Part shown: positions 8,333 to 22,211 of the stretch, piece after piece
How positions within the stretch are numbered: the stretch's first letter is position 1
Layout of the letters: the number at the start of each line of letters is the position of its first letter
NCBI RefSeq assembly: GCF_015207375.1
Contig: NZ_JADEWY010000053.1
Span: forward strand, 1 to 40,744
Origin: Coleofasciculus sp. LEGE 07092
Lineage (GTDB): Bacteria > Cyanobacteriota > Cyanobacteriia > Cyanobacteriales > Coleofasciculaceae
DNA length: 40,744 nucleotides
Direction: 5' to 3'
Position numbers and translations under genes: made by a program
The notes under the pieces: model-generated
Database searches by the model: none
Told to the model about the DNA's origin: nothing
The model's input: the letters and a program-made list of their open reading frames with translations, nothing else

Positions 8333-9115
8333 TCAACCTTGCAGTAGCGATTCGGCTCCATCAATCCACATAGGAGTGCCAGTGATATGACTAGAGGCGT
8401 CTGAGGCAAGGAATAGCACCAGTTGGGCAACTTGTTCGGAAGAACCCGGTTTGCCGTCGGTTAACGGTATATTTCCTTCGGGATATTCAATGGGTTCGCC
8501 AGTTCCTTCCAACTCTTGTTTATCTGTGCTGGAGTTGATATCTGTCTCAATGGCTCCTGGACAAATAACATTTACACGAACGCGGTGTTTAGCCAGTTCC
8601 AGAGCAATCATTTTGGCAAATGCCACCTGAGCAGCTTTCGTACAAGCATAAGCAGTAGCACCCGTATTGCTGAAGATGCGAGTGCCGTTGACAGAAGAAG
8701 TGATGATTACGGAGCCGCCCTGTTTTTTCAGATACGGTACGGCGTACTTAACCGTGAGATACGTTCCTGTGAGATTAATGTTAATGGTTTTATTCCACTC
8801 ATTGAGGTCTAGTTCTTCTAAAGGTGCCCAAACACCATTAATCCCAGCATTAGCAAACACGATATCGAGACGTCCCCATTTATCGGTAATCTGTTGAATG
8901 GCTTGTTGCATTTGCTCCGGTTGGGAGATATCCGCCTCAAGGGGTATCGCTTCGCCACCATTTCCCTGAATTTGGTTAACCGTTTCTTTGAGTTCGTCTT
9001 TAGTCCGACCTAATACGCCAATTTTCGCCCCTTCTTTGGCAAATAGCAGTGCCGTGGCTTTACCAATACCAGAACCTGCACCAGTAATTAGTGCCACTTT
9101 CTCTGTTAGTTGCAT
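8333..9115 (-). CDS. Short-chain dehydrogenase/reductase (SDR)
   Basis: Classical NAD(P)-dependent SDR of 260 residues. The dinucleotide motif TGAGSGIG is at 11-18, NAG at about 90 (FANAGINGVW), the catalytic serine in ITSSVNGTR, and the active-site YACTK near 155. The C-terminal segment ITGTPMWIDGAESLL is the usual SDR end. Substrate not predictable. It converges on the beta-lactamase-like gene, with only 18 bases between the two stops. Its 5' side was hit by the Tn7-like element: the left terminal repeat begins 52 bases upstream of the ATG, so the native promoter may have been separated from the gene. Confidence 0.93.
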   Translation of the reverse strand: MQLTEKVALITGAGSGIGKATALLFAKEGAKIGVLGRTKDELKETVNQIQGNGGEAIPLEADISQPEQMQQAIQQITDKWGRLDIVFANAGINGVWAPLEELDLNEWNKTININLTGTYLTVKYAVPYLKKQGGSVIITSSVNGTRIFSNTGATAYACTKAAQVAFAKMIALELAKHRVRVNVICPGAIETDINSSTDKQELEGTGEPIEYPEGNIPLTDGKPGSSEQVAQLVLFLASDASSHITGTPMWIDGAESLLQG

Positions 9116-9161
9116 ATGTTTCCTTCCCCTTTAGCCCGTTAACCCGATAATTCAACAAAAG

Positions 9162-9166
9162 GATAG
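9162..9166. repeat. Target-site duplication, left (GATAG)
   Basis: GATAG directly abuts the TGTCA tip of the left terminal repeat and is repeated exactly at 14625-14629 after the right tip. Five bp is the duplication length of Tn7-family transposons. Confidence 0.95.
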
Positions 9167-9212
9167 TGTCACTTGAACCATATCCTGTCCAAAGTGGAAG
9201 CATAAGTTGTCC
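9167..9212 (+). repeat. Left terminal inverted repeat
   Basis: Begins TGTCACTTGAACCATATCCT and runs 46 bp; it equals the reverse complement of 14579-14624 except for one position (AAGTTG against AAGCTG). Its inner half is the first TnsB-like site (9189-9212). Confidence 0.95.
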
Positions 9213-9270
9213 AAAAAGCTGTGGTCACTTTATGCTTCGACGTGGTGGGAGAAGTGATGTCACTTGAACC
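9189..9270. promoter_or_regulatory. Left-end TnsB-like binding sites
   Basis: Site L1 at 9189-9212 has the core GGAAGCATAAGTTGTCC. A second copy at 9223-9245 is inverted (GGTCACTTTATGCTTCGACG). In addition the first 13 bases of the transposon tip, TGTCACTTGAACC, are repeated directly at 9258-9270. Sites are assigned by comparison with the right end; binding itself is inferred. Confidence 0.65.
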
Positions 9271-9321
9271 GCTACGCAGTAGTTCCCTCTCACGGAGGAG
9301 TGGCGAATGGCATTATTATAG

Positions 9322-10566
9322 TTAGGACTTTCTGATTACCTGTTTGTATAACCTGTAACGAGCGGAAATTTGGTGGCACAAATCGGGGAAAAAGCGGGAA
9401 ATATCCCCAGGGTCGTATCCAAGAGTAGCAGCCACTTGTCGGAGAGACTGGGGTGGTTCAAAAGACAAAGCTGCCTCTAAAAACGTTTGTACTTTCACCG
9501 CATCAAAGCGCCGATTAGTTTTTCTCCGTTGTTGAGTGATAGGCAAAACCTTCAACGATAGGGGTTGATGCTTCACCACCTGTCCAGTGAGAACATCTTC
9601 TAAAGGAATAGAAAGACACCAACAGACTCTAAGGAGCAAACCTAATTGTGCCAGTGCCTGACCACATCGCCATTCTCCTGGTACGGAAGCACTCAGGTAC
9701 ATTAAGTCAGCAAAAGCTTTGGCATTACCGTTGGTAGCTTCTTGGATACATAAGTCAATGGCTAATGCGAGATTTTCTCTGGGTGGTGGAGACTTGAGAG
9801 CAGGTGCAAGCTCGAGAATTTTTCCCACGGAGTACACAACAAAAATCTGCCAGTCCCAATCGGGTTGCTCTACTGGGGAAGCGTCCACAGAGGTATCACC
9901 ATTGGTCAAAATTGAATTCACACCCAACCACTGTTGGCATCTAGAGCAGAAACCCGGTCGGGAATTCCACTCTAGAGGGTAGAGCAATCGCTGACAATTA
10001 GGACATTGATGCCATAAAACTTGTTGATGAAAAGGACAAGTTGTCACTACCTGGAGCGACCATAATAGAGGCTCGTAGATGGGTTTCCCACAACGCTCCC
10101 AATCGTCATAGCAGACGGGACACCAAGCTTTGTTGGTACGCAATAAACCTCGCGACGGTAAAACGTTAGCCCAACTTAACAAAGTGAGAAACCGTAACTG
10201 ATGTTGCTTTGTTCGTGCTTCTAACACATGAACTGGCTCAGATGCCATAATTCCCATGCCATTCCAGGCTCCCGTATCGTTGAAAAAGACACGGAAAAAC
10301 CATCTAGATAACCCTTGATGCTGATTGCCTTGATATCTACTGACTTGTGGAGCTACTTCTTGAGCTAGGAAAATGCCCGTAGGCACCCGATGAGCTGCTG
10401 CCAACCGAGCCACATAACTGGTCAAACTTTCTACTGTAGGCGTTCCTACACCGATGGGTTCAAGAGGATGCAAGCGGCTACGCTCTGGGATTGTTGTTGT
10501 TCTTGAATACCACAGTTGATGATTACTCCAGTTGTCAACTGACACTTTCTGCGCCTCCGATGACAT
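9322..10566 (-). CDS. tniQ: TniQ/TnsD-family target-selection protein
   Basis: Predicted target selector that links a DNA site to the TnsC ATPase. 414 residues, longer than the short TniQ of many CRISPR-associated elements and somewhat shorter than Tn7 TnsD. The TniQ zinc region is clear: C149-x2-C152, C177-x2-H180, C188-x2-C191 and C207-x2-C210, with WCPVC and VVTTCPFH typical of the family. Near the C-terminus (about 370-405) LRQVAATLGYDPGDISRFFPD reads as a helix-turn-helix, which could be the sequence-specific DNA contact. The ATG at 10566 lies inside tnsC, overlapping it by 32 bases, so translation is probably coupled. It is the only TniQ in the element, so it must serve whatever targeting exists. 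Confidence 0.93.
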   Translation of the reverse strand: MSSEAQKVSVDNWSNHQLWYSRTTTIPERSRLHPLEPIGVGTPTVESLTSYVARLAAAHRVPTGIFLAQEVAPQVSRYQGNQHQGLSRWFFRVFFNDTGAWNGMGIMASEPVHVLEARTKQHQLRFLTLLSWANVLPSRGLLRTNKAWCPVCYDDWERCGKPIYEPLLWSLQVVTTCPFHQQVLWHQCPNCQRLLYPLEWNSRPGFCSRCQQWLGVNSILTNGDTSVDASPVEQPDWDWQIFVVYSVGKILELAPALKSPPPRENLALAIDLCIQEATNGNAKAFADLMYLSASVPGEWRCGQALAQLGLLLRVCWCLSIPLEDVLTGQVVKHQPLSLKVLPITQQRRKTNRRFDAVKVQTFLEAALSFEPPQSLRQVAATLGYDPGDISRFFPDLCHQISARYRLYKQVIRKS

Positions 10567-11722
10567 CCCGTTGAGGATTACGCTCTCCCGGACGACGTTT
10601 CTTTGTTTTCTTCTGTTTTTTGTTAACCGTAGAACGGGTCGAGCTATTGAGCAAGGCTTCTGTTGCTGTTGGTGGCTCCTTAACAGTTAATCCCAATTTT
10701 TGACGCAATCGGCTCAGTTCGCTCTCCGATTGGAGCAGCGCTTTCTCACCTTCTATCGCCTCAGTTGCCATCTGCATACATTTAGAAACACTGGGAGCGT
10801 AAGGTGTAAGATGTGCCAAGCTCAGGGTAGAGGATGATTCTCCCAACGCTTTTCTCAAAGCTTGTGTCAGCCAATCCTTGACTATCCCGACACAACCGAT
10901 ACTGCGTTCATAGAAGTATTCCCAATGCTGCTCTAAATCAGGGGCTTCTAACAAGGGCATTTGGCAGGCAAAACTCTTGAGTACCCGTTTGAAATCTTTA
11001 ACGTCCTGTGAACAATCCGCTTGATAACGAGGAAAGTGAATATCTAGGCTGCGGCGGCTCAATTGACCGCTTAAGTTCCTTAACTGTAGCAGTTCATAAG
11101 TGCCAAAAAGTCCGTGTCGGGTGGACGTGAAACTTGCCATTGACTGAATGGCATCCATTTGGTCTTGTTGTCTTCTTCCCGATGCCATTTTAGTGAAGCG
11201 TTGGGCTTCATCAACTAGAAATACAATTAACCGCCGTTGTTGAATAATCGCCGCTACATCCTCTCGTAAATTTGACAGGTTAGCTTTTGATTTAATTAGA
11301 CGTTGAGAAGAGCCACTGCCCTCAATTCGGCTACTGCCAGTTCTGAGTTTATAATCAACAAAGGGGTCAGCTAAAGCTATCAAGACACTTTTGTAATAAT
11401 CTTTCCAGTCGAAAGACCCTGATTCAGGAGCGCGAGCTTCTACATAAGCAACAGGAATATGCCCACAATCAAGTTGCATGGCTGATAAATTCTGCTCTAT
11501 GAGCACTTTCACAACTTGATGGAGTAAGGTAGTTTTTCCCACCCCAGTAGGGCCAAACAAAAAGATTAATGAAGCGCCTCCAGGATTATTGACGGCATCT
11601 ATTACAGCTTCATAAGCAATTTTTAGTCGCCTGTGTACTACCGTACAGCTTTCAAAGTAAGCCAGTTTTTCTGCTGGATTGACGGCTAAAAGTTCTGGAG
11701 GAAAATTCTGGGGAGACGGCAT
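10535..11722 (-). CDS. tnsC: TnsC-type AAA+ ATPase, transposition regulator
   Basis: AAA+ ATPase expected to assemble on target DNA and pass the TniQ-marked site to the TnsAB transposase. Walker A is GPTGVGKTT at about 57-65, Walker B is LIVFLVDEAQ with the acidic pair at about 171-172, and the residues in between are of the TnsC/TniB type. The C-terminus is a basic tail rich in Lys and Arg (about 370-388). The frame opens at a TTG (11728), but the ATG at 11722 overlaps the TAA stop of tnsAB by one base (TAATG), which is the better start and implies translational coupling. 395 residues. Confidence 0.94.
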   Translation of the reverse strand: MPSPQNFPPELLAVNPAEKLAYFESCTVVHRRLKIAYEAVIDAVNNPGGASLIFLFGPTGVGKTTLLHQVVKVLIEQNLSAMQLDCGHIPVAYVEARAPESGSFDWKDYYKSVLIALADPFVDYKLRTGSSRIEGSGSSQRLIKSKANLSNLREDVAAIIQQRRLIVFLVDEAQRFTKMASGRRQQDQMDAIQSMASFTSTRHGLFGTYELLQLRNLSGQLSRRSLDIHFPRYQADCSQDVKDFKRVLKSFACQMPLLEAPDLEQHWEYFYERSIGCVGIVKDWLTQALRKALGESSSTLSLAHLTPYAPSVSKCMQMATEAIEGEKALLQSESELSRLRQKLGLTVKEPPTATEALLNSSTRSTVNKKQKKTKKRRPGERNPQRDVIGGAESVS

Positions 11723-14418
11723 TACCAAAACTCCTCATAAGGTTCAAGTTCTTCCGAGTCAATCTCATCTCTATTAGGAGAGGCTTCTTGACTTATAGGA
11801 AGTGAAAGGCACTCAGCGGCTGAAGGCTGTTCTTGAAGTCGCGAAATTTTTCCTCCATCAATTATTGCTAAAACCTCTTTGGCTTCTACATCCCGTAACC
11901 GTTGCTCTAAGATAACTTCTTGGGCTTCTGTACTCGCTAGAAATTCAGCTAGGGCTTTGGCTGTGATTGTAAGTTGTTTGGAGTGATTCTTATGTTGTTG
12001 GCGCAACTGTTCGCTAACTACCATCATTTCTCGCTCTGAGTGACCCACTAAGCTGCTGTAGTGCTGCGAAATGCAACTTACCCACTGACCTTTAATGTAG
12101 ACATAGGCACTCCCAACATCATAAGGGTCATAGCGCACGGGAACTTGAGTCTTTTCAATTTCCGAATTTCGGAAACTGTTATGCCAATAGTAGATATGGT
12201 TAATTTTAACTCCCTGATTGGGAATGACTTTGGCGGTTCCTTTGGGTGTTGTTGGTAGGGTCAAAATCCGGAAGGTTTCATCGTAAGGAATCAGTTTGTG
12301 TGAGCGTAATCCGGTTTGCAAGAAGCCATCTGTAAAAGCTGCTCTTGGGCTTTGCAAGAGTGCCGGATGCTCCTTGTTGTCGTAAAATTCATAAGCCCAA
12401 TCGCATAAATTTTGATACAAACTCCCCAGAGTCCAAATAGCTAAATTACGGGGATTCACGCTTTTCGTCACAGCCCTGGAATTCTTGTTAATTTGCGTAT
12501 TTCCCCAGAGATTGTGAATCAACATGGTGTTGGCTGTCCCAAACAAGCGCTCGCATACTGAACCAAATCGGGGTTTGGCGGCTGGTCGGGTTTTCTTTGT
12601 GCAGGAGTAAGCTGCTAGTAGCCGCTCGAAGTAAACACTCATAAATTCTTTGGCTCCATCCACCACTATCGTGTCGGGCAAGCGTCCATGACGATGGACA
12701 CACTCGCGCATCACCATCATGCAACTACGATACGACGGTGGGTCAAAGCACAGATAAACGGCTAGTATTCGTCGTGAGTAGGCGTCTGTTAGGAAGGTCG
12801 CCCAAGGGCGACCCAGATTTACTGATGTGTGGGAGCTAACTAACTCGATATCTAATTGTGTATGGTCAATATGGCAGATTTCAAAGGGTCGTTGTCCGTG
12901 CCTAGGGGTGTTTACCTCTAGCTCCCAATAAAAAGGTTCGTGCTTGTAAGCCGCCCTACGCCCCTGCCTTTTTAAAGCCTGTTCATAGTTAGATTTTTGA
13001 TGAATGTTTCGGACAAATGTTTTGTAGCTACAAGGAGTAATCCCTTGCTGTTCACAGGCTCGTACCAGTGAACTGTAAACGGCGAATTTTCCTTGCTGTT
13101 TGAGATTTAAATAGTGGTTAGCAATGAATTCGTCTACAATTTTTTGTGTCGTTTGAGGCAATTTGGGCTGGTGGTTGCCTTTAGAGCTGACGCGGGGTAA
13201 CAATCCCACATAACCGCATCCATATTGCTCTTGTGCTTTTTGCCACGAAAGTAACCAACGGCGGATGGTACGTGCTGAGACGACCTGCTTATCGGTAGTT
13301 TTTTCACCCGTTAGGTATGGAGCAATGATGGAATAGCGACGGTTAGCTTCTGCACAATCATCAACGCTCGCCTTGGCTAGGAGGTCATTGACGATCTTAG
13401 AAGATGGGGATTGGGTGACAACTCCTGTTAACTCACCCTGTTTGACTAATTCCAATAGGGCTTCGTTTGGCAGTTGGATGACTTTTGCCTCTTCATTGAG
13501 TAGGGCTGTATGGGTTTCTCCCCGATTGAGAATCGATAAGCTTTTTCCATTCCACACCACAGGAGAACCGGGTTTTAGATCAACTAAGTGGGGGGCTAAT
13601 TCTAAGGTTGATGTTCCTCTCAACTTGGTTGTTTCGATTCCACAAGCTTTCTGATTAACCGGAAAGATTTGAAGCTGTGTACCAAGTTGCGCTATGTTGA
13701 CACCCCGCCAATTCACATTTAAATAATTTTGGGCAATTAGGGTATAAACCTCCTCACAGTTGTACCCCTCTTCTAGCAATTCACCTAAGGTAATTCCTGG
13801 ATGAAGTTCTACCCGTGATATGATGTCGGCACGAACTTTCTCTTCTACAGAAACATGGGATGGGTGCAAGTAGTCTTCGAGAAAATGAAGATTATTTTGA
13901 AAAACCCAGTCAATTTCAGTGTTGCAACGGATGCGATAATACAATCCCAAACTTTGTGCTACTTCAACTCCTGGGGGACAGTGCCATTGACTTTCACCTT
14001 CTCGCACGTAACGAGCAGGCATTTTGACTGATAGTCGCACTAATTCATCCAATGTTTTCCACTCTTCAAAGCCTGCAGATGTTTGACGCAACACAAAGAA
14101 ATCTGGGGTATGCAGGACTCCTACTTTCCGACCACTCAGAGCAATGTAGCTCAGTTTGATGCCACTGGGTTGGTCGTAATATTCCAGTACATCTGGGTCA
14201 TATTCCATCTCATAAATGCCTGCCAATTCGTTGTGGTGGCTCTCAAACTGAATCGTTACGCCCATTTTCCGGCTGGGGTAACGACCACTCACGTTTCCTG
14301 CCCTACTGCGTACCACGCGAGATGGTGGCGAACTGCGTAACAGTTCGATGTATTTCCTTGTCGGTTCTGCCAAGCCTAACTGCTGACACCACCGCACAAA
14401 CTGTTCGCCGTCCAACAT
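11722..14418 (-). CDS. tnsAB: TnsA-TnsB fusion transposase
   Basis: A single 898-residue protein combining both strand-cutting activities of Tn7-like transposition. Residues ~1-240 are TnsA-like: an endonuclease core with acidic residues at about 59-71 (FESHHNELAGIYEME), D106 in HTPDFF and E119-W-K121, the PD-(D/E)XK pattern, followed by a winged-helix-like stretch. Residues ~260 onward are TnsB-like: a helix-turn-helix region around 380-480 and an RNase H-fold integrase core with D518 (CHIDHTQLD), D587 (VVDGAKEF) and E623, D and E 35 residues apart. The C-terminal ~170 residues are probably the TnsC-contacting tail. All catalytic residues are present. The gene starts just inside the cluster of TnsB-like sites, so it may repress itself. 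No ribosome site is obvious. Confidence 0.94.
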   Translation of the reverse strand: MLDGEQFVRWCQQLGLAEPTRKYIELLRSSPPSRVVRSRAGNVSGRYPSRKMGVTIQFESHHNELAGIYEMEYDPDVLEYYDQPSGIKLSYIALSGRKVGVLHTPDFFVLRQTSAGFEEWKTLDELVRLSVKMPARYVREGESQWHCPPGVEVAQSLGLYYRIRCNTEIDWVFQNNLHFLEDYLHPSHVSVEEKVRADIISRVELHPGITLGELLEEGYNCEEVYTLIAQNYLNVNWRGVNIAQLGTQLQIFPVNQKACGIETTKLRGTSTLELAPHLVDLKPGSPVVWNGKSLSILNRGETHTALLNEEAKVIQLPNEALLELVKQGELTGVVTQSPSSKIVNDLLAKASVDDCAEANRRYSIIAPYLTGEKTTDKQVVSARTIRRWLLSWQKAQEQYGCGYVGLLPRVSSKGNHQPKLPQTTQKIVDEFIANHYLNLKQQGKFAVYSSLVRACEQQGITPCSYKTFVRNIHQKSNYEQALKRQGRRAAYKHEPFYWELEVNTPRHGQRPFEICHIDHTQLDIELVSSHTSVNLGRPWATFLTDAYSRRILAVYLCFDPPSYRSCMMVMRECVHRHGRLPDTIVVDGAKEFMSVYFERLLAAYSCTKKTRPAAKPRFGSVCERLFGTANTMLIHNLWGNTQINKNSRAVTKSVNPRNLAIWTLGSLYQNLCDWAYEFYDNKEHPALLQSPRAAFTDGFLQTGLRSHKLIPYDETFRILTLPTTPKGTAKVIPNQGVKINHIYYWHNSFRNSEIEKTQVPVRYDPYDVGSAYVYIKGQWVSCISQHYSSLVGHSEREMMVVSEQLRQQHKNHSKQLTITAKALAEFLASTEAQEVILEQRLRDVEAKEVLAIIDGGKISRLQEQPSAAECLSLPISQEASPNRDEIDSEELEPYEEFW

Positions 14419-14451
14419 TTATTTTTTCAAGGCGCAGCAATGGGAGGATAT

Positions 14452-14602
14452 TGTCAGCTTATCAACTTTTGGTCATCTTATCCTTCCAATTTCCACTTGG
14501 GGACAACTTATGGTTCTACTTGGCTGCCCAAGCCGCTGTTCTTCCTACGACAGCATCAGGATTTTTGCCCTTGTTTAGGGACAGCTTATGCTTCCACTTT
14601 GG
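14452..14602 (-). promoter_or_regulatory. Right-end TnsB-like binding sites R1-R4
   Basis: Read from the tip inward, four sites share CCAA..., GAA..ATAAG and TG(A/T)CC: R1 14579-14602, R2 14501-14523, R3 14471-14500 (longer, with a small insertion) and R4 14452-14472. R2-R4 are back to back, R1 stands 55 bp away. Four crowded sites at the end next to the transposase gene and fewer at the other end match the known asymmetry of Tn7 right and left ends. The sites also overlap the likely tnsAB promoter. Confidence 0.75.
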
Positions 14603-14624
14603 ACAGGATATGGTTCAAGTGACA
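14579..14624 (-). repeat. Right terminal inverted repeat
   Basis: Forty-six bases ending GGTTCAAGTGACA, complementary to the left end except for one base. Followed at once by GATAG. Confidence 0.95.
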
Positions 14625-14629
14625 GATAG
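14625..14629. repeat. Target-site duplication, right (GATAG)
   Basis: Exact copy of 9162-9166. Joining the flanks gives an empty site AAAAGGATAGAGTTT in the region between the SDR and ABC transporter genes. Confidence 0.95.
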
Positions 14630-14811
14630 AGTTTAACATCTCTCTTGGTTGAATGAAAACAGGTCACGGCTTTTTGCTCACCCAATCGGATGAGGCTATC
14701 GGGTGAAGTGCAATGCTCATCGTCCGTTGTACTTTAAAAAGTAAGCCTGTAGTACGCTATGCTACAATTCGTAAAAGCTCAACAAAACCAACCGATGAAC
14801 TGCCTACTCTC

Positions 14812-22138: not shown

Positions 22139-22211
<73 letters not shown>

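Follow-up and report, generated by a model that had tools for sequence, protein, structure and literature searches.

The window, i.e., the whole 40,744-nucleotide stretch of DNA that was analysed, harbours an intact Tn7-like element of 5,458 bp at positions 9167-14624. It is bordered by two copies of the 5-bp target-site duplication GATAG (9162-9166 and 14625-14629, read directly from the sequence), and repeat comparison delimits a left, tniQ-side terminal inverted repeat of 46 bp (9167-9212, plus strand) and a right, tnsAB-side one of the same length (14579-14624, minus strand). The two are 98% identical, which corresponds to one mismatch, and the terminal arms extended to 51 nt are 94% complementary. 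Pattern matching finds three TnsB-like repeat sites at the left end (9175-9190 and 9197-9212 on the plus strand, 9223-9238 on the minus strand; span 9175-9238) and four at the right end (14471-14486, 14501-14516, 14579-14594, and 14601-14616, all on the minus strand; span 14471-14616), which are putative TnsB binding sites. The 13-nt tip of the element, TGTCACTTGAACC, has a second exact copy 91 bp inside the left end (9258-9270) and a further one elsewhere in the window's genome (G000 C224:20929-20941), perhaps a solitary end or a chance match. The full element is a single copy in this 6.7-Mb genome.

Three minus-strand genes, tnsAB (11722-14418, 898 aa), tnsC (10535-11728, 397 aa), and tniQ (9322-10566, 414 aa), fill the element; tnsAB and tnsC overlap by 7 bp, tnsC and tniQ by 32 bp, and the non-coding remainder consists of 155 bp from the tniQ stop to one end and 206 bp from the tnsAB start to the other. 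A preliminary description of this DNA had listed 46-bp ends with one mismatch, a perfect GATAG duplication, three overlapping genes for TnsAB, TnsC, and a 414-residue TniQ, and the lack of cargo, of a second TniQ, of cas genes, and of a CRISPR array. All of these were borne out, with just the 155 and 206 bp lying outside genes and with no CRISPR array detected in the window by a script that requires three or more repeat copies spaced 58-90 nt apart. The sole tRNA gene found in the window (22139-22211) lies 7.5 kb from the element.

TnsAB is a TnsA endonuclease fused to a TnsB DDE transposase, with TnsA-N, rve (below its curated cut-off), and Mu-transposase C-terminal domains in Pfam, and scores 997 bits against the solved chain 9bw1_M. 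The catalytic residues named in the preliminary description (TnsA D106, E119, and K121; TnsB D518, D587, and E623) are all present and align with those of 9bw1_M, except that an Ala stands there opposite D518. TnsC is an AAA+ regulator (Pfam AAA_22 and TniB; 323 bits to 9g0f_A and 8fcu_Q). TniQ (Pfam TniQ) is a TnsD-like target selector, which scores 293 bits against TnsD (8v32_J) compared to 153 bits against the small TniQ from the same type of system. Its match covers residues 9-404 of the 462 residues of TnsD, hence about 58 C-terminal TnsD residues have no counterpart. An AlphaFold model of TniQ built from four sequences was poor (mean pLDDT 55), its C-terminal helical region (about 356-413) being the part with the best confidence. 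The solved chains nearest to all three proteins are, as we take them to be, the TnsAB fusion, TnsC, and TnsD of PmcCAST (Tn7744), the type I-B2 CAST of the Peltigera membranacea cyanobiont.

Unlike PmcCAST, the window element lacks cas genes, a second TniQ, and cargo, its TniQ is shorter at the C-terminus, and it lies near repeat-like DNA and not near a tRNA gene. Type I-B2 and I-D CASTs are recognised by cas effector genes with an internal array and by two TniQ-family proteins, the long TnsD homing to tRNA genes; neither feature occurs in the window element. Tn7 itself encodes TnsA, TnsB, TnsC, and a TnsD-type selector, inserts at a fixed distance from its target, and generates a 5-bp duplication. 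The family of the window element shares these properties with Tn7, but the window element differs in its fused TnsAB, its single selector, the lack of TnsE and of cargo, and a target that is not glmS. Tn7-like elements are defined in PMC11406308 by TnsB and TnsC together with TnsA and/or TniQ. The window element encodes TnsA, TnsB, TnsC, and TniQ, and it has paired ends with repeated TnsB-like sites and a 5-bp duplication. According to the same source, elements of the Tn5053/Tn402 family have a single TniQ and a narrow target, and Tn5053 lacks TnsA and depends on a site-specific recombinase (PMC11406308). The likeness lies in the single TniQ with a narrow target, whereas the window element carries a fused TnsA and no fourth gene. 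Tn5469 from Fremyella diplosiphon is entered there as cargo-free, with one TniQ and apparently untargeted (PMC11406308). By description, not by sequence, the window element shares the first two of these properties; insertion in its family does not look untargeted, within a small sample in which one lone end (L130, see below) speaks against targeting. The minimal, cargo-free, single-TniQ design is therefore already in print as Tn5469, and the new part is the target.

Besides the window element, the close family comprises five insertions in two genomes and one lone 48-bp end; with the window and without the lone end, six insertions from three genomes could be placed. Three are found in G065, presumably Allocoleopsis franciscana PCC 7113: L048 and L049 on a 92-kb plasmid, each with its own perfect 5-bp duplication, and L123 on the chromosome. 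The other two belong to G236, presumably the MAG UBA8803: L085, at whose ends no matching duplication was found, and L129, a truncated copy of which a right-end remnant is left. The lone end-like sequence, L130 (about 1471-1518), is also from G236 and is 86-88% identical to the element ends, either of which it may represent. Among the close copies found, only the window copy is intact and it may still be active: L048 and L049 miss about 345 bp at the tnsAB/tnsC junction, L123 has split tnsAB and tnsC frames, and L085 has gaps. In L048, L049, and L085, damaged copies of two genomes, the C-terminus of tnsAB and the N-terminus of tnsC were lost at the same junction. A palindromic, element-end-like sequence (L129 298-349) lies beside the truncated copy.

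A scan of genome contigs yielded four loci, one close copy (L086, on the same contig as L085), one sister element (L087), and two others; a plasmid search gave one record above 60% identity. In 386 genomes of the phylum, four matches at E 1e-70 were obtained in addition to that of the window's genome, each with 33-44% identity, and no copies were found in IMG/VR either by end sequence or by TniQ alignment. Within the order, 388 genomes were searched, and 63 of them have TnsAB at E 1e-60. The next relatives of the close family are in G152 (L081) and G139 (L074), with TniQ identities of 55 and 53%, respectively. Close and next relatives form one group with 100/100 support in the trees of both TniQ (6 rows) and TnsAB (9 rows, including four from elements without TniQ). 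The same three genes are not confined to larger elements, nor do they come with other ends, either of which would have spoken against the preliminary description: the closest relatives have the same ends as the window element and no cargo. An origin of the window element by deletion from a larger CAST is not supported, because the closest relatives share the three genes and the ends, and TnsAB falls into one supported clade of nine rows.

Four of the five close copies besides the window (L048, L049, L085, and L129) are inserted within CRISPR spacers, all in one common orientation. The repeats that flank them differ, those of L085 and L129 resembling each other. The distance between the left, tniQ-side end and the 3' terminus of the following repeat is 49, 50, and 48 nt in L048, L049, and L085, respectively; the tniQ-side end of L129 is lost and gives no such distance. 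On the other side, the preceding repeat stops 31, 30, 12, and 29 nt before the tnsAB-side end in L048, L049, L085, and L129, respectively (counted). The missing duplication of L085 means that its two flanks need not derive from one event; together with the deviating 12 nt it indicates that this copy is probably rearranged. Since left and right distances are coupled within an array, the side that is read is revealed only by the window copy, L123, and perhaps L085. The control was a scan for arrays in 43 loci from the wider TnsAB family, with element ends mapped in a minority of them. Seven held one, and it flanked the element exclusively in the close copies L048, L049, and L085; in L053, L055, L067, and L127 at least about 1 kb separates the array from the transposition genes.

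Two close copies lie at sites where no CRISPR array was detected, namely the window copy and L123, and both have a repeat-like 12-mer at the same place. The left flank of the window element contains GGGGAAGGAAAC (9118-9129, minus strand), which matches 11 of 12 nucleotides of a repeat end and the 3' end of which is 49 nt outside the left end; this proposed target motif sits just upstream of the start codon of an SDR gene (8333-9115) and by eye resembles a Shine-Dalgarno sequence. In L123, TTGAATGGAATC ends 48 nt out from the left end, again with 11 of 12 nucleotides matching. As the motif set was chosen after the sites of the relatives had been seen, the following figures are guides and not tests: 6 of 430,266 background 12-mers match the repeat ends that well, and the L123 site is itself among these six; the 6.7-Mb genome of the window contains 16 occurrences of GGGGANNGAAAC and 11 of TTGAATGGAAAC (27 in total, the window site counted); and a random site would have either form of the motif 48-50 nt away, on the correct strand and the correct side, with a probability of about 6e-6. 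A second repeat-like 12-mer, TTGAATGAAAAC (14649-14660, plus strand; 11 of 12 to a CRISPR repeat end), occurs in the right flank and faces outward, which counts against the targeting reading.

The sites were also inspected for their state before insertion. A near-full match to the SDR gene was found in six of 20 genomes of the family, not counting that of the window (L156-L161). In L159, L160, and L161, the region upstream of SDR is uninterrupted and by eye resembles both window flanks without the element; in L156-L158 the likeness is weaker or absent. None of these six loci was found to contain the ABC-transporter gene that lies on the other side of the window element, hence only the short upstream region is common to them and the window. 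When the flanks of the chromosomal Allocoleopsis copy (L123) are joined with one TCTGC, a continuous reading frame is restored across the site.

The preliminary description was right in seeing a complete minimal Tn7-like element; its proposal of a bare core machine without a dedicated targeting module is rejected, as TniQ is TnsD-like and the insertion sites of the close relatives look specific. Judged from the genes and sites, the window element probably has a dedicated targeting module. A rival reading without targeting is that TniQ merely licenses TnsC, and that the insertions in arrays are the survivors in dispensable DNA. Tn5469, as tabulated in PMC11406308, would be a precedent; moreover, copies of the G139 sister element occupy unrelated sites, one of them in a metE-like frame (by reading), the lone end L130 lacks the motif, and the mapped sites of a sister clade devoid of TniQ show none by eye. 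However, detected arrays make up 3.3% of the 92-kb plasmid once its elements are set aside (a minimum, since short arrays are missed), yet both plasmid copies are in arrays, and survival after random insertion explains neither the fixed spacing and orientation nor the motif beside the two copies outside arrays. We therefore regard untargeted insertion as unlikely.

Guidance by RNA could likewise lead into arrays, if TniQ borrowed the crRNA complex of the host Cascade and the element inserted downstream of matching DNA, arrays included. The closest solved machinery is that of what we take to be a type I-B CAST, and cas genes are present on the plasmid that holds two copies; nevertheless, this reading is very improbable, since the window and L123 sites have no match longer than 10 nt to the spacers compared (11 spacers of the window's genome and 44 motif-following stretches of the Allocoleopsis plasmid), and TniQ is nearer to TnsD than to the small TniQ of the type I-B system. 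We also consider it very improbable that a host protein acting on repeat DNA (e.g., Cas1-Cas2) marks the target and recruits TniQ. Such marking would accommodate the differing sequences of the flanking repeats and the cas1 gene just upstream of one invaded array, but the two array-less sites carry just the 12-nt motif at the same distance, which suggests that a short DNA sequence is read.

Against targeting by the motif stand the small number of insertions placed (six in three genomes) and several sites with a poorer motif or none. The next relative L081 (G152) has CTCAATGGAAAA ending at 50, with 9 of 12 nucleotides matching the repeat end. A 53-bp mini-element in G125 consists of two ends only (L146 1973-2025, duplication GTCCG); on one side of it CCCAATGGAAAA ends at 49 (8 of 12) and AATGGAAAA is found 41-49 nt outside, while no motif was found on its other side. 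None was found at the three left-end sites of the G139 sister element (TniQ 53% identical), the three left and three right flanks of which do not pair as duplications in any combination. No array was detected around the lone end L130, and the flank on its tip side holds no motif around 48-50 nt. Elements of the TniQ-less sister clade (L050 2923-7038, L052 2787-6952, and L006 1-4116) are 4.1-4.2 kb long and encode TnsAB and TnsC, no TniQ having been found in them; perfect 5-bp duplications flank the elements of L050 (AATCT) and L052 (GCTTG), contig L006 is exactly one element long, and all three represent an even smaller Tn7-like transposon. L071 (2642-8359) is a 5,718-bp TnsAB-TnsC-TniQ element with 49-bp ends and a TTAAG duplication.

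Relatives with TnsD-type proteins share the geometry of the close family. Thirteen of the 30 scanned loci hold a tRNA gene, and in the ten of them that were read it invariably lies beyond the tniQ-side end in antisense orientation, the target thus being on the tniQ side as in PmcCAST. By counting in L053, L054, L056, and L060, 30-31 nt separate the element tip from the end of the tRNA; the insertion distance printed for a related CAST I-D is 30-33 nt (PMC10293859). In L053, L054, and L056, the T-arm stops about 51-53 nt outside the element, near the position where the CRISPR motif ends. Among seven proteins at or upstream of L054 Pfam recognised no cas domain (type I restriction, CHAT, and TniQ domains were found), therefore we do not call such relatives CASTs; an Rfam search on four loci returned nothing. 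The tRNA-side TniQ extends 58-65 residues past the aligned part in nine of ten tRNA-side relatives (the tenth, L058, has a shorter TniQ frame, with an alignment that stops early), in contrast to 0 residues in the window, L048, and L085. The Peltigera TnsD is described as binding and bending its attachment DNA in work on PmcCAST-type structures (PMC12585508). The most economical reading is that the window TniQ would be a TnsD-type protein with altered C-terminal contacts, which reads the repeat 3' end and may bind repeat DNA directly. We think it likely that the selector of this Tn7-like family arose from a TnsD-type protein that homed to tRNA genes and came to select the conserved 3' end of CRISPR repeats instead.

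We propose, with good confidence, that the window element is an autonomous, cargo-free Tn7-like transposon whose single TnsD-type TniQ picks the target by sequence, preferring the 3' ends of CRISPR repeats. The fused TnsA and TnsB would excise and join the element, the cut-and-paste mode being suggested by the active-site residues of TnsA, TnsC would connect the transposase with the target, and TniQ, presumably reading the motif itself, would select it. The target would be the 3' end of a CRISPR repeat with a core of roughly GRAnnGAAAC, and insertion would take place about 48-50 nt upstream of the repeat end, in the preceding spacer, with the tniQ side toward the repeat. The window copy would have used the chance look-alike in front of the SDR gene. 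As most close copies lie at a fixed distance from repeats or look-alikes, the data suggest homing into the host's own immune memory.

If this is true, arrays with several types of repeat offer the element a landing site that is portable, and the element acts as the reverse of a CAST, aiming at CRISPR instead of aiming by CRISPR. The host would bear little cost when the element is parked near the far end of the array (apparently the one far from the leader), and the spacers beyond it could be silenced; because tnsAB is oriented along the array, the transposase genes may receive read-through from the leader promoter. The borrowing of CRISPR by Tn7-like elements for their targeting is known; a protein selector aiming at CRISPR repeats would constitute a new class of attachment site and a directed route by which mobile DNA is placed in immune memory. 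The three proteins would also make a compact integrase whose target is short, defined, and read by protein. One paper reportedly describes cas genes interrupted by insertion sequences (PMC10359306). A search of titles and abstract starts in the open-licence literature found no Tn7-like insertion directed at CRISPR arrays, and an earlier description may exist. The intact window copy, the other close copies found being broken, makes the targeting idea directly testable. Elsewhere in the window, five tandem matches to NsiR1 (nitrogen stress-induced RNA 1) occur at 1023-1468 on the plus strand, about 98 bp apart.
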